Virus record (IMG/VR): IMGVR_UViG_3300007512_001664 | Span: 124,001-188,000 of that record | Source of the DNA: a virus | Strand: one strand, 5' to 3' | DNA: 64,000 nucleotides | Shown here: piece after piece, positions 42,846 to 63,340 of the stretch | Layout: each line of letters begins with the position of its first letter | Numbering within the stretch: the first letter of the stretch is position 1 | Position numbers and translations under genes: made by a program | Notes under the pieces: generated by a model | Told to the model about the DNA's origin: nothing | What the model saw: only the letters and a program-made list of their open reading frames with translations | The model's database searches: none

Positions 42846-43649
42846 TTGGTGATAAAAATATTTACAGGATGGAGTAATCCCGGTGGTTCTACTACAGCAT
42901 TTATTAATTTATGCAATTTATTTAATAACAACGGTCATGAATGTATAATGTACGGTCCTCATGACTGGCATCTCGATAAATGTAATGGTGCAAAGTTACA
43001 GACTGCAACCACTAAAGAATCAGATAAAGTTATATATCACTTTTTACATGTAAGAAAAACTAGACCTAATGTTGATAAATTTATTTTAAGCTTACATGAA
43101 AAAGAGCTATATCCGTTAAAGCAAACACCTGTTCATATTTTTGATAAAATACATTTTTTAAATAAACAGCAGTTACTATGGCACGAAGCTCATACTATAA
43201 AAAATTTATCTTGGTTTATTTGCGGTAACGTAAATGAAGATTTAAAACCTTTTAACAAACCTAAACAAAAAATTGCTGGTATTATAGGTAGTATTGATAA
43301 AAATAAACAAGTACATGTTTCTATAGAGAGAGCTATAAAAGATGGTCATACTGATATTCGAATATACGGGACAATAAATGATCCTGATTATTACGAAAGT
43401 GACGTAAAACCTGTTATTGAAAAGTATTCTAAACAAGTCAAACTAATTGGTTATGTAGAAGAGAAACAAACAATATATGATACCATAACTGACGTGTATC
43501 ATTCGTCATTATCCGAAAATGCTTCTCTTGTATCAGATGAGTGTAAGTTAACTGATGTAAGCTTTCATGGTAATGAAAATATTATAGAACAAAGTTTGTG
43601 GTCGAATGTTGGTATTTTAAAGATTTGGAGAGATCAATTAGAGTTATGA
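42846..43649 (+). CDS. Glycosyltransferase, GT4-like
   Basis: The 267-residue protein starts (V)IKIFTGWSNPGGSTTAFINL, a group-1 nucleotide-sugar-fold start, with IAGIIGSIDKNKQVHVSIERA (about 141) and a GYVEEKQTIYDTITDVYHSSLSE donor-site region (about 200). It lacks a long N-terminal half, so it is a compact member. The start is TTG 42846 or, as likely, GTG 42849. It opens the plus-strand sugar region. A weak TTGCAA / AATAAT pair upstream is not convincing. Confidence 0.75.
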   Translation: MVIKIFTGWSNPGGSTTAFINLCNLFNNNGHECIMYGPHDWHLDKCNGAKLQTATTKESDKVIYHFLHVRKTRPNVDKFILSLHEKELYPLKQTPVHIFDKIHFLNKQQLLWHEAHTIKNLSWFICGNVNEDLKPFNKPKQKIAGIIGSIDKNKQVHVSIERAIKDGHTDIRIYGTINDPDYYESDVKPVIEKYSKQVKLIGYVEEKQTIYDTITDVYHSSLSENASLVSDECKLTDVSFHGNENIIEQSLWSNVGILKIWRDQLEL

Positions 43650-44371
43650 GCAATATTATTCAAACATTATGGATCGGAGATACACTTTCATGTATGGAGA
43701 TTCTGTCTTTAAATTCGTTTGTTAAAAACGATATGGAAATTCATTTATATTGTTATGAAGACATAAAGAATGTACCAGATGGTGTTATCATAAAAGACGG
43801 TAAGGATATTCTTCCTAAAGAAGATGTTTTTGCTTATCAAGTGGGACCTGGTAAGGGCTCATATTCTGCTTTTTCTAATTATTTTCGGTATAAACTATTG
43901 TACGAAAAGGGAGGCTGGTGGGTTGATACTGATATGGTCTGCTTACAGCCATGGGAATTTGAAGACGAATATGTATTTTGCTCAGAGGAAGACTACGATA
44001 CACATAAACCTATATTAAACACAGGAGCCATTAAATGTCCGAAGGGAGATAAGTTAATGGATTATTGTTATAATGAGTGTTTAAAGAAAGATAAAAAAAC
44101 ATTAGAGTGGGGAATTGTCGGTCCTAGGTTATTGAATGAAGCTGTAAACAAATTTAATTATAATGAGTATATTAAACCTATACATACTTTTTGTTTTATT
44201 GCTCCCTTTAGATCAAATTTGTTCATCACTCCAGGCAAAGTAATGAAACCTAGTAATAGTATATACGGATTACATTTATGGAATGAAGCATGGAGACGTA
44301 TAGGTTTAGATAAGAAGGGTACTTATCCACCGACTTCAATCTATGAGCAATTAAAAGCAAAATATGTATAA
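43646..44371 (+). CDS. Glycosyltransferase, GT32-like (DXD)
   Basis: This protein of about 241 residues begins at ATG 43646, overlapping the previous stop as ATGA; an upstream in-frame ATG (43598) would overlap the preceding gene far more. Motifs are IIQTLWIGD, SNYFRYKLLYEKGGWWVDTDMV (DTD metal-binding motif about 94-97), and INTGAI-like LNTGAIKCPKG, as in capsular and mannosyl-type GT32 enzymes. It transfers a sugar from an NDP-sugar; donor and acceptor are unknown. Confidence 0.83.
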   Translation: MSNIIQTLWIGDTLSCMEILSLNSFVKNDMEIHLYCYEDIKNVPDGVIIKDGKDILPKEDVFAYQVGPGKGSYSAFSNYFRYKLLYEKGGWWVDTDMVCLQPWEFEDEYVFCSEEDYDTHKPILNTGAIKCPKGDKLMDYCYNECLKKDKKTLEWGIVGPRLLNEAVNKFNYNEYIKPIHTFCFIAPFRSNLFITPGKVMKPSNSIYGLHLWNEAWRRIGLDKKGTYPPTSIYEQLKAKYV

Positions 44372-47541: not shown

Positions 47542-48163
47542 AGAATTAGTTTCAAAATATGGCCGTGGTTTAATGAGTCATGTTCAGTATACTGAAATAG
47601 CTAAAGAGTTAGAGCCACACTGTCCTTGTAATTTACTAGTTTTCGGTTTAGGAGACGACTCTCATTTGTGGCAAAACTTAAACATTAAGGGTGTAACAGT
47701 TTTTTTAGAAGATGATCAATCTTGGATAGATAAAATTTCAAATAAAAGCACAGAAGATTGTTCATATTTTGAGAATACTAATGAATTAACGGTACATCAT
47801 ATAAATTATAAAACAAAGATACAAGATTATCATCAAATAAATCTCGGTGTTAGAGATGATTCATTTTTTGATGAGGAAGAAATTAAAATCGATTTACCTT
47901 CTGAAGTAACGGATATTTTATGGGATTTTATAATTGTAGATGGCCCGTTAGGTCATCAACCACCACGGCCATATAATGGACCAGGTCGGATGAGTAGTAT
48001 TTTTTCCGCTTATTCATTGATAAAAGAAGATGGCATTATTGTTATAGATGATTATAATAGAGGTATTGAAAAAACATATTCAGATCATTATTTTGGGAAA
48101 GAAAATTTATTTAAAATGGTAGAAGGAAAGGTAGGTTTTTTTAAAAATGCAAAAAAGAGATAA
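47531..48163 (+). CDS. Methyltransferase-like, similar to DUF579 polysaccharide O-methyltransferases
   Basis: The 210-residue protein has LLVFGLGDDSHLWQNLN (residues 34-50), FLEDDQSWID (about 59), LWDFIIVDGPLGH (about 133) and PGRMSSIFSAYSLI (about 149), then IVIDDYNR. This layout resembles the DUF579 (Polysacc_synt_4) glucuronoxylan 4-O-methyltransferase family of plants. It may methylate a glucuronic or other sugar acid. The similarity is by motif memory, so the family name is moderately supported. Confidence 0.62.
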   Translation: MSYKELVSKYGRGLMSHVQYTEIAKELEPHCPCNLLVFGLGDDSHLWQNLNIKGVTVFLEDDQSWIDKISNKSTEDCSYFENTNELTVHHINYKTKIQDYHQINLGVRDDSFFDEEEIKIDLPSEVTDILWDFIIVDGPLGHQPPRPYNGPGRMSSIFSAYSLIKEDGIIVIDDYNRGIEKTYSDHYFGKENLFKMVEGKVGFFKNAKKR

Positions 48164-48890
48164 AGGTATAATTTATACAGTTTATAATGCACTGGGTAAT
48201 ATGGAATTTTTTAGAGAATTAAGTATCTCTGTAGAGTCTTTTAGAAAATTTCATCCTGATCTTCATATTACTTGCTTTTCTGATATGAAGCCAGATGAGT
48301 TATTAAAGTTAGTACCAGGTATTGATGAATGCATACAAATTAATTGCCAGATATTAAGAGCAAAGGTCGATGTACTTAAGCATTCTCCATATGAAAAGAC
48401 ATTGTTCCTTGATACAGACACAGTTTTTAACTATAATGTTTACGACATATTTGATATGTTAGATGAATATGAGCTAGTTATTACTCATTGTTTGGCTAGA
48501 AAGAGAGAAAAATATTCAAAATGTATACCTGAATATAAAAACATTCCATATGCTTTTTCAGAAGTTAATACTGGTGTTTTAGGATTTAAAAAGTGTGATA
48601 ATATAGATAACTTATTTGATCTTTGGCCGAAATATTATCGTAAGTATTACAATGTTTGTCCATATGATCAACCTACATTTAGAGTTTCTTTATGGGAATC
48701 AAAAGCTAGATTATATATTTTACCTCCAGAGTATAATGCTAGGAGTAAACAGAACAGAGAAAAACAAAGAACGTTTCATCATGAATTTGGTCATGAGCAT
48801 CTTAGAGAGAGAATTCTTCATATGCATCATAAACAAAAAAATCTCGATTCAGCATTACAATATTGCTTAGAGAATTATCTTGAATATTAA
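48147..48890 (+). CDS. Glycosyltransferase with DXD (GT8-like)
   Basis: The 247-residue protein has YTVYNALGNMEFFRELSISV, a LRAKVDVLKHSPYEKTLFLDTDTVF segment (DTD at about 89-91), SEVNTGVLGFKKC (about 136) and DQPTFRVSLWES. It resembles nucleotide-diphospho-sugar transferases of the GT-A fold. A C-terminal HMHHK motif could be the second metal-binding His site, as in GT8. Its stop overlaps the next start (TAATG). Confidence 0.78.
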   Translation: MQKRDKGIIYTVYNALGNMEFFRELSISVESFRKFHPDLHITCFSDMKPDELLKLVPGIDECIQINCQILRAKVDVLKHSPYEKTLFLDTDTVFNYNVYDIFDMLDEYELVITHCLARKREKYSKCIPEYKNIPYAFSEVNTGVLGFKKCDNIDNLFDLWPKYYRKYYNVCPYDQPTFRVSLWESKARLYILPPEYNARSKQNREKQRTFHHEFGHEHLRERILHMHHKQKNLDSALQYCLENYLEY

Positions 48891-50488
48891 TGATTTGGAC
48901 CAATACATCTCTTTTTGATTCTCTTTTACCAAAAGAGCTAGTAACAACTACTCCAAGTAAAGCTACGTCAATTATATTAGGTGCTCCGCCTATAGATATA
49001 AAATTATTCCCTAATGTTAAATTTGTTTTTCGTGCAGGAGTTGGTACAGATAATGTAAATTTTTCTTCTGACATACAAGTAGAGTTTCCTTCAGTAAAAA
49101 CTAAGAATTACATCTATGAAGAAACTGCAAATTTTACTTGTAGTTTAATATTTAAAATGTTATATGATGGTATAGGAGACTTAACATCATGGAGTAGTAC
49201 TCAAAGACACGTTCTTACAAATAAGACTCTTCTTATTATCGGTCTAGGTAATATAGGACAAAGAGTTAAACATAAAATGGCTCCGTTTATTAAAAATATA
49301 TTAACTTATGATATTTTAAATGATGATAGACCTCCTGATTACAGTAAAGCTGATATAGTTACTCTTCATATACCTTATACTCCTCAAAATAAGAATTTTA
49401 TTAATAAAGAAAATCTTAAGAGATTTAAATCTGATGCTATTTTAATTAATACGGCTCGCGGTCCTTTAGTTAATGAAGATGATCTTTACCATCACTTAAA
49501 AATTACTAACATGCGTGCCGCGTTTGATGCTTTTTGGGAAGAGCCGTATACAGGTAAGCTTACTGAATTTAAAAGTGATAAGTTTTTCATGACACCTCAT
49601 ATAGCTAGTTCTAGTATAGAGTTTATTGAAGGTTGTTACGAAGATTTTAAATCACATCATGTACAAATTGCCGGTGCCGCTCGTCATCTGACGGATAAAA
49701 CCCCGGAACTAGATAAAGCCATAGAGTATACGGCGGGGTCGTATACTAACTTCTTAAAAGGTAAGAAAGTTATTATTATTGGCCCAGCACAGTATGTTAC
49801 TACTAAACCGTTCTATGGTTTTGGTGAAAAAATAGATAAAGAATTTGACGTTGTAGTAAGATTGAACAGAGGGTTAGATGTCATAGATAAGTACAAACCA
49901 TATATCGGCTCTAAAACAGATGTATTTTATAATTGTCTTATAGAGCATAAAGATAATGGAGGTATAATAGATATTAATAGACTTAAAGATCATAACATAC
50001 AGTGGGTATGTACAATACCACATTCTGATATTAAAGGTAATTGCCATAATAACAGGTTAAGTCCGATGGTCAATTTACAAACCGTATCTAAGATAGCAAA
50101 CAATTTTAATTTTCACGTAATGGATTATAGATTGTATGGAGAATTAAACAAAGGAGTAGCTTGTAGAGCTAATACTGGTTTTGCAGCGATATTTGATCTG
50201 TTAAATCGCGATGTTGAGTCTCTTTACGTTACTGGCTTTAGTTTTTATTTAGATAATTTTACACCAGGTTATAAAGAAGGTTGTACGAGAGATGAAGAGG
50301 AATTTGCTAAGCAATGTTTTGCATCTAAACGACATAATCAAGTAAATCAATGGGAGTATTCTCGTAAACATTTAAAAGATAACCCTAAAGTTATTTTAGA
50401 CGACGTATTAACTAAAATTTTAAATTTAAAAACTCTTAGTAGAGAAGAATTTAATGAAAAAACTCAAGATTTATATAGTAACGTATAA
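48890..50488 (+). CDS. Fusion: D-2-hydroxyacid dehydrogenase + sialyltransferase-like domain (GT29-like)
   Basis: The 532-residue protein has an N-terminal D-isomer dehydrogenase (1-270) with LLIIGLGNIGQRVKHKM (about 113), INTARGPLVNEDDL and TPHIASSS. The C-terminal part (295-532) has VIIIGPAQYVTTKPFYGFG, DVVVRLNRG, and CRANTGFAAIFDLLNRDVESLYVTGF, which resembles the sialylmotifs L and S of GT29 sialyltransferases. A dehydrogenase joined to such a transferase is unusual; it may make and use a keto-acid sugar. The second domain is a motif-based call. Confidence 0.75.
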   Translation: MIWTNTSLFDSLLPKELVTTTPSKATSIILGAPPIDIKLFPNVKFVFRAGVGTDNVNFSSDIQVEFPSVKTKNYIYEETANFTCSLIFKMLYDGIGDLTSWSSTQRHVLTNKTLLIIGLGNIGQRVKHKMAPFIKNILTYDILNDDRPPDYSKADIVTLHIPYTPQNKNFINKENLKRFKSDAILINTARGPLVNEDDLYHHLKITNMRAAFDAFWEEPYTGKLTEFKSDKFFMTPHIASSSIEFIEGCYEDFKSHHVQIAGAARHLTDKTPELDKAIEYTAGSYTNFLKGKKVIIIGPAQYVTTKPFYGFGEKIDKEFDVVVRLNRGLDVIDKYKPYIGSKTDVFYNCLIEHKDNGGIIDINRLKDHNIQWVCTIPHSDIKGNCHNNRLSPMVNLQTVSKIANNFNFHVMDYRLYGELNKGVACRANTGFAAIFDLLNRDVESLYVTGFSFYLDNFTPGYKEGCTRDEEEFAKQCFASKRHNQVNQWEYSRKHLKDNPKVILDDVLTKILNLKTLSREEFNEKTQDLYSNV

Positions 50489-51383: not shown

Positions 51384-52085
51384 ATGAAGATTTTTATACC
51401 AATTAAACATGAATCTCAGAGAGTACCTGGTAAGAATTTTCGGCAATTAAGCGGTCTACCTCTTTACAAACATACACTTTACAAATTAAAAGATTATAAG
51501 GTTTTTGTTGATACGGATAGTGATGAAATAATTCATAATATACGTAATGATGTTAATTTAAGGAATGTTGTTACTCTTAAGAGACCTCATTATTTATGTG
51601 GTAACGATGTATCAGTAAATAAACTTATTGATAATCTTTTAAATGGGCATTGGCGCGGCGGAGCAGAGACATCTACAGTTATAGAGCCTAGCGATGTCGT
51701 ATGTCAAATTCATGTAACTAGTCCTTTCCTTAAATTAGAAACTTTAGAGAAGGCGTATAAGTTTTTTGAAAATGATAAGTGTGATTCCGTTGTTAGTTGT
51801 AATTTAATAAATTCTCGTTTATGGAGAAAGGAAGAATATGGTTATTGTCCCGTAAATCACAACCCTCTAAAACTAGAACAAACTCAATCACTTCCAACGT
51901 TGTATGAAGAGAATTCTGCTTTTTATATGTTTAAAAAAAGTGTATTTACTACTATTAAAAATAGGGTAGGTAAAAACCCAGCTTTCTTTAAAGTCGATCA
52001 TCCTGAGAATTTTGATATTGACACAGAAGATAATTGGCGGGAGTGTTTAAAAATTAATGAGACTCTTATGGCAACAACTTCCTAG
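51384..52085 (+). CDS. CMP-sugar synthetase-like cytidylyltransferase (NeuA type)
   Basis: The 233-residue protein starts IPIKHESQRVPGKNFRQLSG (residues 4-23; the cytidylyltransferase family signature with Arg-x-Pro-x-Lys-Asn), has YKVFVDTDSDEI, VCQIHVTSPFLKLET (about 110) and DIDTEDNW at the end. It would activate a sugar acid or related sugar with CTP. AAGG lies directly before the ATG. A second, distinct member lies at 54512. Confidence 0.85.
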   Translation: MKIFIPIKHESQRVPGKNFRQLSGLPLYKHTLYKLKDYKVFVDTDSDEIIHNIRNDVNLRNVVTLKRPHYLCGNDVSVNKLIDNLLNGHWRGGAETSTVIEPSDVVCQIHVTSPFLKLETLEKAYKFFENDKCDSVVSCNLINSRLWRKEEYGYCPVNHNPLKLEQTQSLPTLYEENSAFYMFKKSVFTTIKNRVGKNPAFFKVDHPENFDIDTEDNWRECLKINETLMATTS

Positions 52086-52737
52086 TCCAACAATTACAGA
52101 GATATTATGTAATTCTACATTTGACGGAGTAGTCTTCGATCTCGAACATGGATGCTTTAATAATGAGACATTGTATACCTGTATACAGGTATGTTTACTT
52201 AAAAACAAATTATGTTTTATTAGAGTTACTTGGCTAGATAAGACTGTTATTAGAATGAGTTTAGATGCTGGTGTGTCAGGAGTTATATTTTCAACAGTAC
52301 AGAATTATTTTAAAGCTAAGGAGTATTATAATTACTGTTTTTACCCACCTAAAGGTAGTAGAGGACAAGGTTTAGTCAGAGAAAATGAGTGGGGTAATAA
52401 AGATTTTAAAAAACGTGACCCTATAGTTGTAGCTCAAATAGAAACACGAACAGGTTTAGATAATATAAGCATTATCGCAGAAGTAGATTTTGATTATTTT
52501 ATGGTTGGGCCATATGATTTATCCGCAAGCTTAGGATGTGTTGGTAATTTTGATTCCCCTGTATATAAAACAGCTATAGAAAAATTAAAATCGAAAGTCG
52601 GAAATAAACTTGGTTATCACATAGTTAAAAATATTGAAGATCAATTAGATATTTACAGAGATTCAGAGTTTTTAGCTTTATCAATGGATACACTTTTTCT
52701 TATTGACGGAATAAAGAGGATCGAGGACGTAAAGTGA
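52057..52737 (+). CDS. HpcH/HpaI-family aldolase
   Basis: The 226-residue TIM-barrel protein has FDGVVFDLEHGCFNN (residues 23-37), FIRVTWLD, MSLDAGVSGVIFSTV (about 69), KGSRGQG, VVAQIETRTGLDNI and FDYFMVGPYDLSASLG (about 147), all typical of metal-dependent 2-keto-3-deoxy-acid aldolases. In this region it may make or break a 2-keto-3-deoxy sugar acid used by the cytidylyltransferases. It overlaps the gene before by 29 bases. Confidence 0.87.
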   Translation: MRLLWQQLPSPTITEILCNSTFDGVVFDLEHGCFNNETLYTCIQVCLLKNKLCFIRVTWLDKTVIRMSLDAGVSGVIFSTVQNYFKAKEYYNYCFYPPKGSRGQGLVRENEWGNKDFKKRDPIVVAQIETRTGLDNISIIAEVDFDYFMVGPYDLSASLGCVGNFDSPVYKTAIEKLKSKVGNKLGYHIVKNIEDQLDIYRDSEFLALSMDTLFLIDGIKRIEDVK

Positions 52738-53171
52738 TTTTAATCTCTCATAGAGGTAATTTAACTGGTAAAAATTCTAAATTAGAGAATAAACCTCTCC
52801 AAATTCAAACGGTATTAGACTTAGGGTTTCATTGTGAGATAGATGTTTGGTTTATAAACGGCGAATATTTATTAGGACATGATGAACCGAAAATTCGTAT
52901 TAAGGAGTATGCACTTGAACATCCTCATCTATGGTGTCATGCTAAAAATTTAGAAGCATTACAGATGATGTTAAAGAATCGTAACATACATTGCTTTTGG
53001 CATGAAACAGATCAATATACTATTACTTCGGAGCAATTTATTTGGACGTATCCAGGTAAATACGCTTCAGAAAATTGCATTATTGTAGATAATTCGAAAA
53101 ACCCTCCTAATTATAATTGTAAGGGTATTTGCTCCGACTATGTACAATCATATAAAACACGTTATTTTTGA
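52734..53171 (+). CDS. Short GDPD-like protein
   Basis: The 145-residue product starts with GTG at 52734, overlapping the aldolase stop. It has LISHRGNLTG (residues 3-12), FHCEIDVWFINGEYLLGHDEP (about 32-52) and LWCHAKNLEAL (about 66), the first half of the glycerophosphodiester phosphodiesterase barrel with catalytic His and Glu-x-Asp. It is much shorter than full GDPD enzymes (about 250). It may act on a phosphate-linked glycan. Confidence 0.72.
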   Translation: MILISHRGNLTGKNSKLENKPLQIQTVLDLGFHCEIDVWFINGEYLLGHDEPKIRIKEYALEHPHLWCHAKNLEALQMMLKNRNIHCFWHETDQYTITSEQFIWTYPGKYASENCIIVDNSKNPPNYNCKGICSDYVQSYKTRYF

Positions 53172-54540
53172 TCTCGACGGTGTTTTACTAGATAGTAGAG
53201 ATTTACATTATTACGCATTTAATGACGCCTTACGTTCAATTAATGAGTCCTATGTTATTTCTCGAGAAGAGCATCTATCTTCATATGACGGTCATACAAC
53301 TACCACAAAACTTAAATTGTTAACTAAGGCCAAGCAGCTTCCAGAGAGCAAGTATGACGAAATTTGGAATCTAAAACAACAATTTACAACCGACCGCCTT
53401 CAATCCTTACAAGAGAATTTAGACTTACAACGGTTATTTAAATTTTTAAAAGATAAAGGATTAAAAATATCTATTGCATCTAATGCAATACGTCAAACAG
53501 TGTGGACATGCCTTGATAAAATAGGAGTACTTAGGTATTGTGATCATGTATTAACTAATGAAGATGTGTTTCTTTGTAAACCTAATGCAGAAATGTATAT
53601 GAGATGTATGATACACACAAAGACTAATCCAGATGAAACTGTAATTGTTGAAGATTCTCATACTGGAAGAAAAGGAGCTATTAGAAGTGGTTCTCATCTG
53701 TGTCCTGTAACAGGGCCAGAAGAGGTAACATTTAATTATATAACTAATTTTATTCAAAATAAAGATAAGACTATGGAAGAAATAAAACCTAAATGGCTAG
53801 GTGGTGATATGAATGTATTAATTCCCATGGCTGGTGCTGGTACGCGGTTTGAAAAAGCTGGTTACACCTTTCCAAAGCCGTTAGTTGATGTAAATGGTAA
53901 ACCGATGATACAGACGGTGGTCGATAATTTAAATATTGAAGCCAATTATATTTTTATTGTCCAAAAATCTCATTATGAGAAATATCATTTACAAACAGTA
54001 CTAGAAAACATAGTACCGAAATGCACAATTGTACAAGTTGAAGGTATAACAGAGGGTGCGGCATGTACTACTCTATTAGCTAAAGAGTTTATTAATAATG
54101 ATAAACCGTTAATTATGGCTAATTCTGATCAATATGTAGATTGGGATAGTAATGAATTTATGTATTCTATGGTCGGAGATAACGTGGATGGTGGTATTTT
54201 AACTTTTAAATCTACACATCCTAAATGGAGTTATGCAAGATTAGGAGATAACGGGTTTGTTACAGAGGTCGCTGAAAAGAAACCTATATCTAATATTGCT
54301 ACAGTTGGTATTTATTATTGGTCTAAAGGGTCCGATTATGTAAAATATGCTGAGCAAATGATAGATAAAAATATTAGGACAAATAATGAATTTTATGTTT
54401 GTCCTGTGTTTAACGAAGCTATAGAAGATGGAAAAAATATTAAAATTTTTGATGTACCGAAAATGTGGGGTCTAGGTACCCCGGAGGATTTGAATAATTT
54501 TATATCTAATTATGAAAGTATGCGCGACAATTCCAATTAA
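53140..54540 (+). CDS. Fusion: HAD phosphatase + sugar nucleotidyltransferase
   Basis: The 466-residue protein begins with a HAD domain (1-205): HVIFDLDGVLLDSRDLHYYA (residues 7-26, nucleophile Asp11), SNAIRQTV, CKPNAEMY and VIVEDSHTGRKGA. From residue 224 a nucleotidyltransferase follows: MNVLIPMAGAGTRFEKAGY, FPKPLVDVNGKPMIQ, MANSDQYVDWD. ATG 53809 within it, with AGGTGG upstream, might allow separate translation. The pairing resembles the phosphatase and nucleotidyl steps of heptose or similar NDP-sugar synthesis. Confidence 0.85.
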   Translation: MYNHIKHVIFDLDGVLLDSRDLHYYAFNDALRSINESYVISREEHLSSYDGHTTTTKLKLLTKAKQLPESKYDEIWNLKQQFTTDRLQSLQENLDLQRLFKFLKDKGLKISIASNAIRQTVWTCLDKIGVLRYCDHVLTNEDVFLCKPNAEMYMRCMIHTKTNPDETVIVEDSHTGRKGAIRSGSHLCPVTGPEEVTFNYITNFIQNKDKTMEEIKPKWLGGDMNVLIPMAGAGTRFEKAGYTFPKPLVDVNGKPMIQTVVDNLNIEANYIFIVQKSHYEKYHLQTVLENIVPKCTIVQVEGITEGAACTTLLAKEFINNDKPLIMANSDQYVDWDSNEFMYSMVGDNVDGGILTFKSTHPKWSYARLGDNGFVTEVAEKKPISNIATVGIYYWSKGSDYVKYAEQMIDKNIRTNNEFYVCPVFNEAIEDGKNIKIFDVPKMWGLGTPEDLNNFISNYESMRDNSN

Positions 54541-55156
54541 AAGTAATTCTACTAGAGTAAAGGATAAGAATTTTAAAGATTTAGGAGGTAAGCCTTTATA
54601 TCAGTATATTATTGATCATTGCATACAAGCAGAATGTTTTGATGATATATATGTAGATACTGATAGTCCTGAGATTAATAGTTATTGTGTAAAAAATCAG
54701 GTAATATGCATTAAACGTAAACCTGAACTCACATTAGACACTGCAAATGGTAATGATGTCTTTCACTATGATATAGATTTTATAGGGCATTACGATTTTT
54801 ACTTTCAATTATATGCTACAGCACCATTTTTAAAGCCAGAAACTATTAGAGAGTGTGTAGATAAGTTAACTCATAGTTCAAAGCATGATTCTATACTTAC
54901 AGCTACAGAAGAATTTGGGTGGTTTTGGCATAAAGATCAACCTGTAAATTATCAGCCTAATATCTTACCTAGATCTCAAGATGCTACACCTGTTATAAAG
55001 GAGACAACCGGTTTATATGGTATATCGAAAAGCGCATATGATAGGTTTAGATGTCGTGTAGGTGCTACTCCGTATTTCTATATAATTAATGATAGAGCAG
55101 AGTGTATTGATTTAGATACAAATGAAGATTTTAGTTTAGCAGAGAACATGTTATAA
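54512..55156 (+). CDS. Second CMP-sugar synthetase-like cytidylyltransferase
   Basis: The 214-residue protein starts ATIPIKSNSTRVKDKNFKDL, then LGGKPLYQYIID, DIYVDTDSPEIN, LYATAPFLKPETI (about 108) and CIDLDTNEDF near the end. Same fold as the 51384 gene but clearly divergent, so two different sugars or an acid and its precursor may be activated. It overlaps the HAD fusion by 29 bases. Confidence 0.85.
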   Translation: MKVCATIPIKSNSTRVKDKNFKDLGGKPLYQYIIDHCIQAECFDDIYVDTDSPEINSYCVKNQVICIKRKPELTLDTANGNDVFHYDIDFIGHYDFYFQLYATAPFLKPETIRECVDKLTHSSKHDSILTATEEFGWFWHKDQPVNYQPNILPRSQDATPVIKETTGLYGISKSAYDRFRCRVGATPYFYIINDRAECIDLDTNEDFSLAENML

Positions 55157-55162
55157 GAATAT

Positions 55163-55759
55163 ATGGAAATTATTAATAATACAGATCCGAATATAGTAAG
55201 AAAAACATATGAGTGGTTCGATCAGCACACACGCTATGGTTCATCTTTTCACGGTGAGTCATTATTGCCGATTGTAAAATCATTAAAAAATGTTAATTCT
55301 GTTTTAGATATCGGAACTGGTCGCGGAGACTTTTGTAATTGGGCTATTGAAAATTTATGTCAAGACGTTACAGGCTTGGATTTTGCTATTACCCCGAATC
55401 CAAATTATTTAAATAAAAATATTAAATTTATTAAAAATACATCACACGAAATACCATTGCTAGATAACTCTGTTGATCTTGTGGTTTCGTTTGATGTATT
55501 AGAACATATAAGACCAGAAGATATAACAGAAACAATAAAAGAGTTTTCTAGAGTAACAAAAAAATACATGCTACATAAAATATCTTCAACCGCCGCATCA
55601 GCAGAATATGGAAAAAATAATCCGCATATACAAGAAATCGGTAACTTGCATCTTATACAGCAATCCCGTGGTTGGTGGTTTAATAAATTTAAAGAGTATA
55701 TTCCTAATTCATCTATATACAGATTGGATCGTTGTTTATTTGTAGTTAAAGATGTATAA
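55163..55759 (+). CDS. SAM-dependent methyltransferase (Methyltransf_11-like)
   Basis: The 198-residue protein has SVLDIGTGRGDFCNWAI (residues 46-62, motif I), VTGLDFAI, and VDLVVSFDVLEHIRPEDI (about 109), typical of class I enzymes. The substrate is unknown; a sugar or lipid-linked glycan is likely from context. It overlaps the next gene by 8 bases. Confidence 0.85.
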   Translation: MEIINNTDPNIVRKTYEWFDQHTRYGSSFHGESLLPIVKSLKNVNSVLDIGTGRGDFCNWAIENLCQDVTGLDFAITPNPNYLNKNIKFIKNTSHEIPLLDNSVDLVVSFDVLEHIRPEDITETIKEFSRVTKKYMLHKISSTAASAEYGKNNPHIQEIGNLHLIQQSRGWWFNKFKEYIPNSSIYRLDRCLFVVKDV

Positions 55760-56429
55760 AGCGTGTTGTATTACTAGTATTACGGGTGATAGGTCTAAAT
55801 TAGTTGATCCGCTATTTGTTCATCCTAATATCGATTATTTTGCGTTCGTCGATAAAACATATAATAATATAAAAGTATGGAACCAAAAAAAGATTTATGA
55901 TTTTAGCACTATAGATAATTATTCAAATAGGAGAAATGCAAAGATATATAAAATTTTACCTCACCTATTTTTACCTGGGTATGATTATTATATATGGTGT
56001 GACGCAAACTGTATTTTTAAGGAAGACCCGGTTAAATTAATTGAACAGTACTCTGTTGACGCTATATTTTTTTATCATTATAGATATAATACTATTTTTA
56101 ATGATATAGAAAAAATAATTAAGCGCAAGAAAGATCATTTAATTAATATAGATAATTATATAGAATTTTTATCTAATTCTAATTACATAGACGATATGCT
56201 CTTACAATTTTCTATGTTTATTACTACTAATAGTCATGAAAGTATGTTAATGAGATTAATTTGGTGGGAATTAATATGTAAATTTTCTTCTCGTGATCAA
56301 ATCTCAGGACCGTATGCTATAAAAAAATCAAAAATTAGTTATCACATAATTAAACAGTCTTTAGGGCATGTAACACCATTAAGTAGTAATAATATAGGTA
56401 TAAAATTTAACCCAAGCAAGCATGATTAA
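55752..56429 (+). CDS. DUF616-like glycosyltransferase
   Basis: The 225-residue protein has SNRRNAKIYKILPHLFLPGYDYYIWCDANCIFKEDP (about residues 58-93), the signature region of DUF616 (TOD1/MUCI70 type) proteins, which are thought to be GT-A glycosyltransferases. The DAN site stands for the usual DXD. It is compact compared with eukaryotic relatives. Confidence 0.7.
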   Translation: MYKACCITSITGDRSKLVDPLFVHPNIDYFAFVDKTYNNIKVWNQKKIYDFSTIDNYSNRRNAKIYKILPHLFLPGYDYYIWCDANCIFKEDPVKLIEQYSVDAIFFYHYRYNTIFNDIEKIIKRKKDHLINIDNYIEFLSNSNYIDDMLLQFSMFITTNSHESMLMRLIWWELICKFSSRDQISGPYAIKKSKISYHIIKQSLGHVTPLSSNNIGIKFNPSKHD

Positions 56430-57267
56430 AATATGTCATATACGTGGTACACCGGAATATTGGAAGCATGAAAATCTTCCTAGAATTTCAGGTTGTCCTT
56501 CAGAAGAAAATAGAGACTTAATGTATAAATGTTGGAAAGAATATTTTAACATACCGTATCAAGAATTTAAATTACGCATAAGAGAAGCGACTATAAACTA
56601 TATTAAAGAATTAAATCAATTTGATGTTATTTTATATAACAATGAACTGTATCGTGATTTTTTAAAAAATAATAAAATTGATAATATAATGCTATATAGT
56701 CAAGACGATGATGATATATTATACTTTATACCGGACCATATATCTCCCGGTATGAACATTTATAATTATAGTTATATTGATATAACAAATACTAAAAGAC
56801 TTGACTATGAATTGGATGATAATTTTTGTACGTTTCTTCCTAAAAAATTACAATCAAATCATGCAATATATTTTGTGTTAAATGAGCCAGATTTTATTCA
56901 AAACATAAAATCATATGGTTATATTCGCGCTCATACTATTTATGATTCATACAAAGAGTGTTTAATAGAAAAAAATGTACATATTTCTTATCATGACTAT
57001 TTTTTTACAACCCAATTTTATCATTTAACTAGCTTATCTTTATGGAAAAATATTGCTGGTACTAGTAAAACATCTAGGCATATTAGAGAGTATTTTTTTG
57101 AGAAAAAGCAGTTCGATAGAGATTGTATTTTTAAAATATTTGATTGTTATATAGATTTTATAAAAAAATTTAATATACCAAGACAATTGAACGACGTAAA
57201 ATATAAAAAAGGAGCGGAGTTAATTAATACATTTAAAAATCTATACATTGATGTAAGTACTTTATAA
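56422..57267 (+). CDS. Unrecognised protein of the sugar region
   Basis: The 281-residue protein is Tyr/Asn/Ile-rich with an alpha/beta start (IKICHIRGTPEYW), a cluster LYSQDDDDILYFIPDHI (about 93-109) that could be a metal-binding acidic site, and a helical C-terminal third. Position, length and the acidic site suggest a glycosyltransferase, but I recognise no family. It overlaps both neighbours. Confidence 0.6.
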   Translation: MIKICHIRGTPEYWKHENLPRISGCPSEENRDLMYKCWKEYFNIPYQEFKLRIREATINYIKELNQFDVILYNNELYRDFLKNNKIDNIMLYSQDDDDILYFIPDHISPGMNIYNYSYIDITNTKRLDYELDDNFCTFLPKKLQSNHAIYFVLNEPDFIQNIKSYGYIRAHTIYDSYKECLIEKNVHISYHDYFFTTQFYHLTSLSLWKNIAGTSKTSRHIREYFFEKKQFDRDCIFKIFDCYIDFIKKFNIPRQLNDVKYKKGAELINTFKNLYIDVSTL

Positions 57268-58394
57268 TGAAAATAGCTATTTTATGTTTTGGTCAGCCTA
57301 GATTTTTAGATCTAACACATGAATATATTAAGCAGGAATTTAATATGCCCGGTCATGATGTCGATTACTTCTTCCATCTATGGAGAGGTGTAGGTTATAA
57401 CCCAGAAGATTCAATTAATAGTACATATGACACAGTACCAGATCTTGATAAGCTAGTTCAGAGCTTTAATCCAAAAATGTGGATTCTCGAGGATTATAAA
57501 TCTACCGGTTGTCAGATTATGTTTGAAAAACATAGGAAGTGGCGCTGGAAAGATCAACATTCATTGGTAGATCTGTGTAATGCTTGGAGTGTTATGAATG
57601 ATTTTGTTAGTTATAATAGAGATACTCCTATACCTAATTCCAAACGATTGGAGTATTTCTTCGGACAACATTACAGTATACAAAAATGTTTTAATTTAAT
57701 TGAACAGTACGAAGAGTTAAATGGTTTTAAATATGACATTGTAATAAAAATTAGAACAGATATAGTCTATAGAACGCCTAATTTATATAAATCTCCAGAG
57801 GTGTATGATTTGCATAAAGTAGAACATTATACAGATTTTCCTACGGATTATCCTTGTATTAATGTTAAAGGATTACGTATTAATAGATTACAGATAAAAG
57901 AGAATACATGGAAAGGTCAAGATATATCATGTTTTTATAAAGGAAAGTATAGTTTACCGGATGAAGATTATGCTAAGAAGAAAAAATCTATTAAATTTGA
58001 TTTAAATACACGGTTATGTTTTAACGACTGGACTATTATCGCTAATCGAGCGGCAGCTCATTATTATTTTGGTAGATGGTTTGAGACATATTTAATAACT
58101 TATGGAGAAGATTTATTGTATCGTAAAGACAGATATTGGTATAAAAGTCAATCTGATCATACCCTTCAAGGTCATATAGCTTTATATAATGACATTAAAG
58201 TTAACAGAGTCAATAGACGAGATATGAAACTGGTCAGAGAAGATAAACTTGAAGGAGAAAAATCTAAAGATAGTTTATCTAATAAAGCCGTAGTACCGTC
58301 GAATAATGAAATAGATCTCGATAGTTGGATATGGGATAGATGGAAACCAAAAACAAAAACAAAATCAGATTGGACAGTTCAGCAAAAAAAATAA
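57267..58394 (+). CDS. GQPRF-family putative glycosyltransferase, paralogue 1
   Basis: The 375-residue protein starts MKIAILCFGQPRFLDLTHEYI and shares DYFFHLWRGVGYNP, YFFGQHYSIQKCFNLIEQYEELNGFKYDIVIK-type segments (around residues 129-161) and an R-x-D motif (KIRTDIVY) with three downstream paralogues. The R-x-D and VIK pattern suggests a GT-A-like nucleotide-sugar site. It has a charged 60-residue C-terminal extension that the others lack. Confidence 0.68.
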   Translation: MKIAILCFGQPRFLDLTHEYIKQEFNMPGHDVDYFFHLWRGVGYNPEDSINSTYDTVPDLDKLVQSFNPKMWILEDYKSTGCQIMFEKHRKWRWKDQHSLVDLCNAWSVMNDFVSYNRDTPIPNSKRLEYFFGQHYSIQKCFNLIEQYEELNGFKYDIVIKIRTDIVYRTPNLYKSPEVYDLHKVEHYTDFPTDYPCINVKGLRINRLQIKENTWKGQDISCFYKGKYSLPDEDYAKKKKSIKFDLNTRLCFNDWTIIANRAAAHYYFGRWFETYLITYGEDLLYRKDRYWYKSQSDHTLQGHIALYNDIKVNRVNRRDMKLVREDKLEGEKSKDSLSNKAVVPSNNEIDLDSWIWDRWKPKTKTKSDWTVQQKK

Positions 58395-59395
58395 AAATTG
58401 CTATTTTACTATATGGTCAGCCTCGCTTTTTTGAGCATACATATAAAAACATACAAGAGGCGTATACTATAGACGGGTGTGAAACCGATTTTTTTGCTCA
58501 TTTCTGGGAAGATGTTGGGTTTTATCCTGGTGACGACTATACAGATACATATATAAGGACTAAAGAGAGAGTAGAGAAGTGCCTTATAGATTTACAGGTT
58601 AAAGATTATATACAAGAAGATTATACTGAGTTAGATCTCCTTGGTGATTCGCAAAAGATAATATATGATTTTTTAACTCAGTCGCGCCGTGACATTTCTC
58701 GAATCCGTCCAGTTACTAATACACGAGGCCGGTATCATTATGGACAACACTTGAGTTTACATAAATGTTTTTGCTTAATGGAGAAATTTGAACGTCGAAA
58801 GAACTTTAAGTATGATGTCGTTATAAAGGTTCGTAGTGATTGGATCTATTCACCTAGTGACTCCATTACAAAATATAAAGCATATATTGAAAAATTAGTT
58901 GAACCTAATTTCATGAAGTTCGAATGCAAACGACTTACGACTCTTAGTCTCAAAAAATATGACTTACGTACGAAAACAGAATATCATTTATAAAAAGCGG
59001 ATTGTAAAAAGGCTGATCTACACAATTGTGTGATATCTATATCTGATATTTTTATTAATTGTAGTCGAGGCGCCGCGAAGTATATTTTTAAAGATTGGTT
59101 ATTTTATTATAATTATCTTCAATGCATATACACCCATAATTATGGTTCTTTAAAAAATATACTCGAAGAAAAAGAAAAATCATATAATAAAATTAATCGT
59201 ATTTTAGGCGATATTTGTATGATAAATGGTATCGGAGCTTTTAAGTGTTCAAAATCAAGTATAAAAATTCATCGACTTATGTTAAAGGATAAATGTAAGA
59301 AAAAATGGGTGAACTCTAGGCGTCGTATAGTCTTACCGGATTTGAATTGTAATATACCACAATATATCGAACAAGCTTTACATGAAAACAAATGA
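58391..59395 (+). pseudogene. GQPRF-family paralogue 2, interrupted by one in-frame stop
   Basis: A reading frame matching the paralogues is broken only by TAA at 58991-58993. After it the same frame stays open (KADCKKADLHNC...) and continues into the typical C-terminal half, ending at 59395. Where paralogues start MKIA, this one has ATA (58391-58393, IKIA) overlapping the upstream stop as ATAA; the next upstream ATG is 58340. Two changes from a good gene suggest decay, or alternatively readthrough or split subunits (58340-58993 and from GTG 59030). A base-call error is also possible. Confidence 0.72.
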
Positions 59396-59984
59396 CATAA
59401 TAATAGTCCCTAAAGTTCCTAAATGGGAGTCTCATAAAACAGAAGGAGAAGTCATTGGTCCATGTAAAACTCGAAAAGATATAGGAGCATTATGTCAAAA
59501 ACTAGGTTGTAACAAGCGTGGTGTTGAATTAGGTGTGGCAAAAGGTAATTTCACATTTCAAGTACATAAGTATTTTGATCAGTTTTGGAGCATTGATAGT
59601 TGGTGTGATGTGCGACATGATACTAAACAATATGAGCGATTTAAACGCAAGATATCACGCAAAAAAATTACAAATATTAATGTAGTTCGCTCTGATTTTA
59701 ACACAGTAGTTAAATCGTTTGACGATTATTTTTTTGATTTTATTTATATTGACGGTTATGCTAAAGCCCATCATCAATTACGACTTAATTTAAAAAATTG
59801 GTTTATTAAACTAACTCCAGGAGGTATTTTCTCAGGTCATGACTGGCAATATCCACACGTACAGGAGATTATTAATGAGTTCGCAATTGATAAAAAATTA
59901 AATTTAAATGTTACCGGTGAACAGCATTATGGTTTGTCTGGTAGAATAAACACAAAAGGTCCTACATGGTGGTTTAAAACATGA
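59382..59984 (+). CDS. SAM-dependent methyltransferase (Methyltransf_24-like)
   Basis: The 200-residue protein has KRGVELGVAKGNFTFQVHKYF (residues 45-65, motif I), SIDSWCDVRHDT, VVRSDFNTVV, FDFIYIDGYAKAHHQLRLNL (about 120) and GGIFSGHDW. It is inserted between members of the GQPRF family, as though methylation is matched to those sugars. Overlaps: 14 bases upstream and 4 downstream. Confidence 0.85.
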   Translation: MKTNDIIIVPKVPKWESHKTEGEVIGPCKTRKDIGALCQKLGCNKRGVELGVAKGNFTFQVHKYFDQFWSIDSWCDVRHDTKQYERFKRKISRKKITNINVVRSDFNTVVKSFDDYFFDFIYIDGYAKAHHQLRLNLKNWFIKLTPGGIFSGHDWQYPHVQEIINEFAIDKKLNLNVTGEQHYGLSGRINTKGPTWWFKT

Positions 59985-60910
59985 AAATTGCTATTTTACT
60001 ACACGGTCAGCCTCGTTTTTTTAAATATACTTATAAGAGAATAAAAGAAGAGTTTAATTTACCTGGTGTAGAGTTTAATTTTTTCGCTCATTTTTGGGAT
60101 AAAGTAGGGTATACTCCCGCGAGCACTGAGACTAATATTATAGATTTAATTCCTTTATTGGAGCAGTTAAATATAAAAAAATATTTAATTACTAATTACG
60201 ACAAATTAAATACTATTACTTCTTCAAATGAAGTCGTTAGATCTCTTGCTAAAGGTAATATATCAATAAAACCATTTAATCCCGATAATAGGTATCACTA
60301 CGGTCAATATGTTAGTTTATTAGAGGTTTTTAATCTAATGGAGCAATACGAACGTGATAATGATATAAAATATGATATCGTTATAAAAGTTCGTAGCGAC
60401 TGGGTATATAAAGATAAGAGTTGTTATACATCAGAGTTAGACTATCTTACGGCAAAGAAAGAAAATTATCTTTTCTCTGATGTGAGCAGAAAAATGATAA
60501 GAACAACATATGTAAATAAGAAAATTTATAATAATAAAGAATATGTAAGGAGCTTTGACCCGTATATTATAGCAACACGCCCAGCAGCGCCTTGTTTTTT
60601 TAAATATTGGTTTTTAGCTAATCTTAATGCCTTAATTAAAGATGTTTTGGTTCCTATAGATATTAAATTACATGTAAAGCACGATTTTATGATTGGAGAA
60701 ATTGCTAATTTATTCGACATACAAGTCGAAGAGATTACTTTAAATTATGGAATTGGTAGATGTCATAGAGTAGTTAATTTTGAAGATTGTAAGAAATTTT
60801 GGATTACAGATGATAAGAATATATCTATTATATTACCTACTTTGCAGTGTAATGTTAAAGAAGAAATACAAAAACAATTATTAACAATAAACCAAAGGAA
60901 ATCAAAATGA
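59981..60910 (+). CDS. GQPRF-family putative glycosyltransferase, paralogue 3
   Basis: The 309-residue protein starts MKIAILLHGQPRFFKYTYKRI, with FNFFAHFWDKVGYTP (residues 33-47), YHYGQYVSLLEVFNLMEQYE (about 107) and IKYDIVIKVRSDWVYK (about 130). The C-terminal domain includes RPAAPCFFKYWFLAN. It overlaps the next paralogue by 4 bases (ATGA). The family is unnamed to me; glycosyltransfer is inferred from the fold pattern and neighbours. Confidence 0.68.
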   Translation: MKIAILLHGQPRFFKYTYKRIKEEFNLPGVEFNFFAHFWDKVGYTPASTETNIIDLIPLLEQLNIKKYLITNYDKLNTITSSNEVVRSLAKGNISIKPFNPDNRYHYGQYVSLLEVFNLMEQYERDNDIKYDIVIKVRSDWVYKDKSCYTSELDYLTAKKENYLFSDVSRKMIRTTYVNKKIYNNKEYVRSFDPYIIATRPAAPCFFKYWFLANLNALIKDVLVPIDIKLHVKHDFMIGEIANLFDIQVEEITLNYGIGRCHRVVNFEDCKKFWITDDKNISIILPTLQCNVKEEIQKQLLTINQRKSK

Positions 60911-61941
60911 GAATAGCAGTTTTATTATATGGACAGCCTCGCTTTTTTGAGCAAACATGGCAATATTTAAAAGAAGAGTTTAATCTACCCGGTGTAGAAT
61001 TTGATTTTTTCGCTCATTTTTGGAAAGGTGTTGGTTTTTCACCGAAAGACGATAAACAATTACGGTATATTGATAATTGTAGTTTAGTTAAAGATCGATT
61101 AACTAAATTAAATGTAAAAAAACAGTTGATCGAAGACTATAAACGTTTAGACGTCTTGTGTAAAACGTTTAACACTGTTCATAACTTTCTATTAAAGGGA
61201 AGCTTTAAAGAAGTATCTAATCCACTAGGGTATCGATATTATCTAGGTCAATATGTCAGTGTGTATAATGCACATTGCCTAATGGAGGAATATGAGGTTG
61301 AAAACAAGTTTAAATATGACGTTGTAGTTAAGGCTCGGTCTGATTTTATTTATAAAGATCGACGGTTTTATAAATCTGACGAAGAATATTTAGCTGCGAA
61401 GCGAGAAAATTATGTAGATAATTTTGAAGAAAATAAACATAAAAGATTTGCTAAGACTATTGATATAATTTATAAAAAATGGCTTCCATTTAACGACCCT
61501 CCGCAGTGGACAACATATAAAAAGATTGATTATTTTAAAAAAGATTGTATGGTACAAAACCGAGATAGACATAATATCTTAAGAATGGGAGATGTAAATA
61601 TAGCGACTAACAGATTAGCATCGGATTGCTTTTTTAAGTATTTTTTCACTACCACTTTTTGTACATTAGCTAATGATATACATAATCATAATACAGATCA
61701 ATTATTAATATACAAAAGACATGATGCTATGTTTGGCGATATTGCTATATTGTTTGACATAGAAGTTAAAAGAATTAAGAGATGTAGATATTTTAGGGTG
61801 GCGTATTTAAATAGTTGTAAGGAAACTTGGCTAAGAAATAAACACGGCACTATAGTTATAGATGATTTAAATTCAGACATATATGACGAAATAGAAGTGC
61901 AATTAAACCGTAACAAATGGATTCTTAAATATGGGATGTAA
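60907..61941 (+). CDS. GQPRF-family putative glycosyltransferase, paralogue 4
   Basis: The 344-residue protein starts MRIAVLLYGQPRFFEQTWQYL and follows paralogue 3 closely at FDFFAHFWKGVGFSP, YYLGQYVSVYNAHCLMEEYE and FKYDVVVKARSDFIYK. It is longer by about 35 residues in the middle (around residues 165-210). Tandem position shows duplication. Confidence 0.68.
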   Translation: MRIAVLLYGQPRFFEQTWQYLKEEFNLPGVEFDFFAHFWKGVGFSPKDDKQLRYIDNCSLVKDRLTKLNVKKQLIEDYKRLDVLCKTFNTVHNFLLKGSFKEVSNPLGYRYYLGQYVSVYNAHCLMEEYEVENKFKYDVVVKARSDFIYKDRRFYKSDEEYLAAKRENYVDNFEENKHKRFAKTIDIIYKKWLPFNDPPQWTTYKKIDYFKKDCMVQNRDRHNILRMGDVNIATNRLASDCFFKYFFTTTFCTLANDIHNHNTDQLLIYKRHDAMFGDIAILFDIEVKRIKRCRYFRVAYLNSCKETWLRNKHGTIVIDDLNSDIYDEIEVQLNRNKWILKYGM

Positions 61942-63340
61942 GATATTTTATAAGGATGAAGTAATAAATCCTAAAAAGGAAATTGTACCGATATACGATG
62001 ATAATTTAGATATACAGGTTGAAAAACGATATTATAGTAGTAAAAATCAATTAGGTGTAGCTGGTCCCGAGCAATACTTATTCGAAAAAAAGTGCTTAAC
62101 TTTATTGGAACAAAATTATGAAGATTTGTATAATGTAAATTTTTATCCTTTCCCTAGAATTATAAAAGATGATCCTACAGAGCCTAAACTATGGTTAAAT
62201 TTTTGTGGTAATACAATTAAAAACGTGTATCATTGTACATTGCTACAACAATCTCACAGTGAGTATAATAATGTATTAGATAATATTAACGATCAAATAA
62301 AAAATATTATTTATAATTTAAAAAAGAATAATATTTATCATTTAGACGTAAAACAATCAAATGTTTGCGTGAATAAGGCAGGATATATTTCTCTTATAGA
62401 CTTCGGTATTGGTTTTATTGATTCCGCTGAGTCAGTTGAATACGTTTATCTAAATCAAAAACGAAAACGAGATAGACAGCATTGGTTTGATACTAAATTA
62501 GTTAACGATTTTAATGTTATTGTTAGTCATCTTAAAAGACCAGTTATTACTGCCGTGATGCCATGTTATAACCGTCCAAATGGAGCTAAAAGACAAATTT
62601 TAAATATTTGTAAGCAAAATATTAATAGTTGGGAAGCTTTTATAGTAGGAGATTGTTGCGAACAGTTTGAAAAAGAAGTTATACCGAATGTTGAGGTTAA
62701 TAAAAACTTAAACAGAGCCAGAAGACGTGGTAATATAATACATTCAAGTAAGCAATGGGGAGAAAGTGTGCTCCCGGTACCTCATTTTTTTAACAGATCG
62801 AAAGGATCTGGGCCATATGGTTATAAAAAATATCCTATATTAGGAAGCCCCGGCAAGTGGGGCACCGGTATTATAAATTTTGCACGTAAATATGCTATAG
62901 GAGAATATTTTATATGGCTCAGTGATGATGATATTATAACTAAAAATCATTTTGAAAATTATCTTTCTTATATTAAAGATACTGATTACGATATGATTAT
63001 TCTCGATGATTATGCCGGTGAGTCGCGAACACGCCGAGGAGCTCGAAAAAGTAAAACGTATATTCGGTCTAAAGGTAAGAAAAAAAATGAGAATGATGGT
63101 ATTGTAAGAGGGAGTGTAGGTCATAGTAATGTGATTGTTAGGACTGATTTTTTAAGAACGATTCCAGAAACTTCTAGAGAGCGTCGCACTCATGATTTTG
63201 TTATGATATCTGATATAATAAATGCAGGAGGTAAATATAAAATCGTACATGACAATCAGTGTACATATTGGACCAAATACACTGATAGATTTGATAATTG
63301 GGATGGTCAACGCGAGGGGGTGTATCTCGGTAACCGGTAA
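61931..63340 (+). CDS. Fusion: kinase-like domain + GT2 glycosyltransferase
   Basis: The 469-residue protein has a kinase-like N-terminal part (1-195) with NIYHLDVKQSNVCVN (His137-x-Asp139, Asn144) and LIDFG (Asp157), the catalytic and metal loops of protein/sugar kinases; a glycine-rich P-loop is not evident, so it is a reduced kinase. The C-terminal GT2 domain (200-469) has VITAVMPCYNRPNGAKRQI and EYFIWLSDDDIITKNHFENYL (DDD). It may phosphorylate and extend the same glycan. Confidence 0.78.
   Translation: MGCKIFYKDEVINPKKEIVPIYDDNLDIQVEKRYYSSKNQLGVAGPEQYLFEKKCLTLLEQNYEDLYNVNFYPFPRIIKDDPTEPKLWLNFCGNTIKNVYHCTLLQQSHSEYNNVLDNINDQIKNIIYNLKKNNIYHLDVKQSNVCVNKAGYISLIDFGIGFIDSAESVEYVYLNQKRKRDRQHWFDTKLVNDFNVIVSHLKRPVITAVMPCYNRPNGAKRQILNICKQNINSWEAFIVGDCCEQFEKEVIPNVEVNKNLNRARRRGNIIHSSKQWGESVLPVPHFFNRSKGSGPYGYKKYPILGSPGKWGTGIINFARKYAIGEYFIWLSDDDIITKNHFENYLSYIKDTDYDMIILDDYAGESRTRRGARKSKTYIRSKGKKKNENDGIVRGSVGHSNVIVRTDFLRTIPETSRERRTHDFVMISDIINAGGKYKIVHDNQCTYWTKYTDRFDNWDGQREGVYLGNR

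Follow-up and report, generated by a model that had tools for sequence, protein, structure and literature searches.

The window analysed here, 64,000 nucleotides long, covers positions 124001-188000 of the 200,819-base viral record IMGVR_UViG_3300007512_001664. Its segment 57267-61941 is made up of four paralogous open reading frames (ORFs), called GQPRF proteins below, and one PF13578 methyltransferase. The genes lie on one strand and neighbours abut or overlap in an operon-like manner (window coordinates):

57267..58394, plus strand: GQPRF copy 1, 375 amino acids (aa), a predicted GT-A-like glycosyltransferase; phrog_13607, E = 7.7e-20; BLASTP against copies 2-4, E = 1e-28 to 1e-35
58340..59395, plus strand: GQPRF copy 2, interrupted by a stop codon; N-terminal domain ORF at 58340-58993 (217 aa), C-terminal remainder at 59030-59395, both pieces matching the family
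58991..58993, plus strand: in-frame TAA in copy 2, from base-level comparison with contig L052
59382..59984, plus strand: S-adenosylmethionine (SAM)-dependent methyltransferase that separates copies 2 and 3; Methyltransf_24 (PF13578), E = 1.2e-8, which passes the curated Pfam cut-off
59981..60910, plus strand: GQPRF copy 3, 309 aa; phrog_13607, E = 1.5e-11
60907..61941, plus strand: GQPRF copy 4, 344 aa, predicted GT-A-like fold; the copy modelled with AlphaFold2 and compared using Foldseek

The four paralogues share the motifs GQPRF, [FY]FxHxWxxVGxxP, GQxxSxxxxxxLxxxxE and YDxVxKxR[ST]D, and pairwise BLASTP comparisons among them yield E-values from 1e-28 to 3e-61, far past chance. This bears out an earlier interpretation made from the letters alone (the sequence-only reading), which had described four motif-bearing paralogues with a methyltransferase among them. 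Its four-copy array is indeed present, but copy 2 is interrupted by a stop codon and the array does not comprise the whole family: the record contains eight members, four in the window and the following four outside it, all more divergent than the window copies (record coordinates):

28253, plus strand: further family member
94601, plus strand: further family member
188107, plus strand: further family member
190901-192148, minus strand: further family member

The DNA polymerase of the window (26975-29617, minus strand) is approximately 30% identical to those of phages of the T4 superfamily, including Pelagibacter phage HTVC008M and cyanophages, and a tail-sheath match at 853-3699 agrees with this affiliation. 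Because of these two matches, the source phage is classified, by sequence, as a marine T4-like myovirus. The 853-3699 product has 948 aa; its C-terminal third resembles the T4-type tail sheath (33%), and its long N-terminal part lies outside the matches.

To predict the fold, an AlphaFold2 model of copy 4 was built with 58 family members. The model is confident (predicted local distance difference test score, pLDDT, 87.3; predicted template modelling score, pTM, 0.89), and its strands and helices follow the order expected for the alpha/beta/alpha Rossmann-like nucleotide-binding domain of the GT-A fold. A Foldseek search against PDB produced 53 matches at E <= 1e-3, and the best 50 of these 53 consist exclusively of glycosyltransferases and sugar nucleotidyltransferases, most of them with a known GT-A fold; among the matches are the glycosyltransferase family 6 (GT6) enzyme BoGT6a, blood-group GTA/GTB, alpha-1,3-GalT, B3GNT2/B3GalT, beta-1,4-GalT, SpsA and GMPPA/B. 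Viral structure matches are mostly unnamed phage and giant-virus proteins, but include a Cafeteria roenbergensis virus protein annotated as 'Glycosyltransferase' and a Sylvanvirus DUF7796 protein. The model of a distant, shorter member is of low confidence (pLDDT 67); BoGT6a again came first, weakly (E = 1.2e-3), and as the PDB matches of this model lie above E = 1e-3, they are supporting evidence only. GT6 (BoGT6a, blood-group GTA/GTB, alpha-1,3-GalT) is the best-represented group of solved structures for these two separate models. Where the sequence-only reading had seen an unknown fold, modelling thus predicts a distant GT-A-like one.

The single best match, to GMPPA/GMPPB (E = 4.1e-5), and another to a Vibrio pyrophosphorylase favour a role as GT-A-fold sugar nucleotidyltransferases, similar to nucleoside diphosphate (NDP)-sugar pyrophosphorylases, in the synthesis of activated sugars instead of their transfer; such enzymes are present in the surrounding gene cluster, too. 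We regard this role as very improbable: transferases form the majority of the structural matches; nucleotidyltransferases have a signature loop of the GxGTR...PK type, which is absent here, the first loop being GQPR; NTP_transferase and CTP_transf_3 are already encoded by other genes of the genome; and many divergent paralogues per genome suit serial linkages better than serial activations.

Conservation was counted over 58 aligned family members. The aspartate D146 of the R/K-x-D motif is present in 58/58 and R144 in 51/58, with Lys in the other seven; W39 is found in 57/58 and H37 in 56/58. In the copy 4 model G9-Q-P-R12 follows strand 2-9, H37-x-W39 ends strand 31-39 and R144-x-D146 follows strand 139-144, so that the conserved positions are predicted to lie at the ends of strands lining the GT-A nucleotide site. 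With regard to the xED catalytic base, the G-loop glycine and the C-terminal His of GT-A enzymes, the alignment shows partial conservation of D229 (41/58) and G277 (37/58), while every His of the C-terminal half is conserved in fewer than 60% of the members. The DXD motif for metal and nucleotide-sugar binding, located after strand 4, is typical of GT-A enzymes, though not universal, and in the model R/K-x-D occupies its position. The replacement of the first DXD Asp by Arg or Lys could mean that the proteins are catalytically dead GT-A-like sugar-binding or scaffold subunits, similar to lectins. This is unlikely, as the second Asp, GxxR, HxW and QxxS are near invariant across very divergent members, as expected of an active site, and GT-A enzymes that lack DXD and are metal-independent are known, namely bacterial GT6, which has NXN, and GT14 (PMC3961637, PMC7185993).

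Given the family itself, its predicted fold, the position of its motifs, its gene neighbourhood and the purifying selection described below, we consider it probable that the GQPRF proteins are a divergent GT-A glycosyltransferase family acting in glycan assembly. Several observations weigh against this assignment. Template modelling (TM) scores to solved structures are low, approximately 0.3-0.46, and the relationship is therefore one at the fold level; the acceptor half has no clear counterpart in solved structures; GT-A-fold nucleotidyltransferases are also found among the structural matches; sequence searches in Pfam, NCBIfam and PDB assign the proteins to DUF7796 at most, weakly, and to no glycosyltransferase family; and the canonical DXD is absent among the 58 members, which have R/K-x-D in its place. 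Since DXD-lacking exceptions are known, the missing motif lowers the claim to a subclass and not the claim to the fold. The same sequence searches gave no match to a non-glycosyltransferase family, and the label 'glycosyltransferase', which the sequence-only reading had already proposed and which fold, motif position and gene neighbourhood support, is well supported but unproven.

The relation to GT6 is distant. GQPRF proteins and GT6 have about 10% identity, with TM-scores in the range given above, and at the level of sequence no PDB match was obtained with profile A2 and only one, unrelated, with profile A3 (E = 0.24). BoGT6a, a metal-independent enzyme, is also without DXD and has NXN in its stead (PMC3961637), whereas GQPRF proteins have R-[ST]-D, neither DXD nor NXN. 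The GQPRF proteins, too, may work without metal.

As for activity, donor, acceptor and biological role, we infer the following. The GQPRF proteins would be Leloir-type, that is, nucleotide-sugar-dependent, glycosyltransferases of divergent GT-A fold. The N-terminal 160 or so residues would form the nucleotide-sugar-binding half, with strand 1 leading to G-Q-P-R, strand 2 to H-x-W and strand 4 to R-[ST]-D at the DXD position, and acceptor binding would fall to the variable C-terminal half. The paralogues would probably all act on one glycan, each with a sugar or linkage of its own, using activated sugars, including probable cytidine monophosphate (CMP)-linked ones, supplied by the surrounding genes. 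The methyltransferase encoded among them probably adds a cap or decoration to this glycan. A host surface polysaccharide or a virion glycan is the most likely target.

Iterative hidden Markov model (HMM) searches of loci fetched from viral contigs yielded 123 and then 133 family ORFs (redundancy included), which form two branches, GQPRF and SG[EQ]PR. The branches are joined by profile-profile comparison: profile A3 matches A5 with probability 99.8 and E = 2.5e-30 over approximately 155 N-terminal columns, and A6 with E = 1.5e-28. The number of copies differs among contigs, with six members at one locus and five back to back at another. One member of about 480 aa (L057 5690-7165, also L015 2741-4165 and L016 2690-4165) is apparently fused to a Methyltransf_11-type domain, as concluded from its length and from the single methyltransferase-matching member among those scanned; the fusion echoes the stand-alone methyltransferase of the window array. 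Relatives in known phages were found in cyanophages and in one marine single-cell virus record. Bacterial and archaeal species genomes were scanned with short peptide patterns, so that the result indicates rarity only within the sensitivity of such patterns: those from the GQPRF alignment matched nothing, and those from the SGEPR-type subfamily one relative, a 652-aa protein of Neoroseomonas alba (L051 6984-8939). In the shortest and most diverged members no segment was sufficiently conserved to yield such a pattern. This protein, the only cellular relative found, combines a weak TPR match with the family-related region.

All four copies match the profile of PHROG 13607 (E = 9e-11 to 8e-20), which is annotated as being of unknown function. 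The window copies and their genome paralogues match it across the first 170 or so residues; the profile has 239 positions, whereas the window proteins have 309-375 aa with an extra C-terminal half. A weak recurrent N-terminal similarity is shared with DUF7796 (PF25072), a family whose function is likewise unknown and which was named in no paper found by a literature search. It was matched by 19/62 family members at E <= 0.01 (best E = 4.8e-5) and is collinear with the N-terminal half of the relative from L078 (2-131 to 5-141, 21.1 bits). This score and those listed for copy 1 (15.9 bits) and copy 2 (18.5 bits) are below the Pfam curated cut-off of 27 bits, and copies 3 and 4 have no match. Iterative HMM searches place SSM2_209 of cyanophage S-SM2 in the same superfamily (138 bits). 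This gene sits among heptose and lipopolysaccharide (LPS)-type genes; it and its cyanophage relatives are about 26% identical to copy 3 over 46% of its length, and their annotations go no further than 'capsular polysaccharide biosynthesis protein' or 'hypothetical protein'. Judged by sequence, the family is therefore already in the databases, as PHROG 13607 and in relation to DUF7796, and is not entirely the undescribed class it had been taken for, but no function or named glycosyltransferase family can be attached to it in this way.

Pelagimyophages and cyanomyophages, which are likewise marine T4-like phages, have hypervariable regions rich in glycosyltransferases, with many LPS-type ones, proposed to alter the host O-chain; GT8 is the commonest family there (PMC7029224), whereas the GQPRF proteins matched no named glycosyltransferase family. 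Tentatively, and with some doubt, we suggest that they are an as yet uncatalogued glycosyltransferase family with R-[ST]-D instead of DXD, possibly metal-independent. It would be common to marine phages and giant viruses and perhaps, by way of DUF7796, to eukaryotes, and would serve large marine phages as a toolkit of several copies, one linkage per paralogue. The GT-A glycosyltransferase assignment would provide a likely function for a recurrent 'unknown' PHROG of marine T4-like phages and a lead for DUF7796 and for several unannotated giant-virus proteins of the same predicted fold. The paralogues are, moreover, a tractable set in which to study the diversification of glycan linkages by phages and the ability of a GT-A enzyme to function when Arg replaces the first Asp of DXD.

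The pattern of selection was determined from the ratio of the rates of non-synonymous and synonymous substitutions (dN/dS) against sister contig L053. The ratios are 0.15 for copy 1, 0.16 for copy 2, 0.19 for copy 3 and 0.07 for copy 4, and 0.12 for the methyltransferase at 59382..59984. All four copies are under purifying selection, and therefore each had a maintained function. Pairs of paralogues within the window are 32-43% identical with saturated dS (> 1.3). In the tree, which took in 188107 and 190901 of the four copies outside the window, each window copy pairs with its own orthologue in L053; copies 3 and 4 are the only sister pair among the window copies (Shimodaira-Hasegawa-like approximate likelihood ratio test, SH-aLRT, 93), and 188107 and 190901 fall into separate clades common to other phages. 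The copies thus appear to be old, and the saturation of dS and the tree reject a recent lineage-specific expansion, contrary to the suggestion that the family is expanding in this phage.

Downstream of the TAA in copy 2 the same frame reopens, and the product of 59030-59395 can be aligned to the C-terminal domain found in copies 3 and 4. In contig L052, with 99.77% identity over 9 kb, the site is a sense codon and copy 2 is intact (351 aa), so an intact allele exists; the TAA differs from the sense codon by one substitution. Copy 2 is also open in L053 (90% DNA identity; 333 aa). As both frames are open, the stop is either recent or a consensus error, and may be explained by strain polymorphism, a recent nonsense mutation or an error in the consensus. 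Recoding of the stop codon was rejected, because TAA ends neighbouring genes. Copy 2 might be a true pseudogene in this phage, which would be compatible with any of the functions discussed above: the in-frame TAA lies inside the domain and is a genuine stop in this genome. We lean slightly against this, given that a single substitution separates copy 2 from the open frame of a nearly identical contig, that dN/dS over the whole gene implies that any loss is very recent, and that the metagenome consensus may be in error.

The GQPRF genes are part of a glycan-synthesis cluster of approximately 20 kb. Upstream of the array it contains a DXD glycosyltransferase, methyltransferases, a GT2-like protein, two CMP-sugar cytidylyltransferases, an HpcH/HpaI aldolase, a HAD-nucleotidyltransferase fusion and a TOD1/MUCI70-like protein. 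The neighbours with Pfam matches include (window coordinates):

43598..44371, plus strand: Gly_transf_sug glycosyltransferase of the DXD type, close to where the cluster begins; PF04488, E = 1.1e-6
51384..52085, plus strand: CMP-sugar cytidylyltransferase-like (CTP_transf_3); PF02348, E = 1.7e-13
53140..54540, plus strand: fusion of a HAD phosphatase and a sugar nucleotidyltransferase; PF13419, E = 1.2e-27, and PF00483, E = 2.3e-12
54512..55156, plus strand: second CMP-sugar cytidylyltransferase-like (CTP_transf_3); PF02348, E = 1e-20
55752..56429, plus strand: TOD1/MUCI70 glycosyltransferase-like protein, the upstream neighbour; PF04765, E = 6.8e-12
61931..63340, plus strand: kinase-like domain (N-terminal half) fused to a GT2-type glycosyltransferase, downstream, overlapping the end of copy 4; PF00535, E = 5.5e-10, and PF00069, E = 7.1e-6, below its cut-off

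A census of 146 genes that lie next to family members, most of them in other contigs, was led by the Pfam families GT2, GT25, guanosine diphosphate (GDP)-mannose dehydratase, epimerases, methyltransferases, GT1, radical SAM, carbamoyltransferase and cytidylyltransferases, and the cluster in the window is of the same type as these neighbourhoods.

Three other products of the region were noted. The protein encoded at 47531-48163 is of the IRX15/IRX15L/GXM type (PF21729, E = 2e-32); this family of glucuronoxylan methyltransferases, known chiefly from plants, is represented here in a phage glycan cluster. The ORF at 48890-50488 encodes a D-2-hydroxyacid dehydrogenase (PF02826, E = 2.6e-32), whose C-terminal half of about 250 aa looks sialyltransferase-like by eye and has no Pfam match. 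A small 'ISHRGN...EIDVW...LGHDEP' protein at 52734-53171, also without a Pfam match, looks glycerophosphodiesterase-like by eye; since its counterpart directly adjoins a minimal GQPR protein in L078 (upstream of 8001) and is fused with one into a single ORF in L079 (7572-8639), a functional link between the two proteins is suggested.

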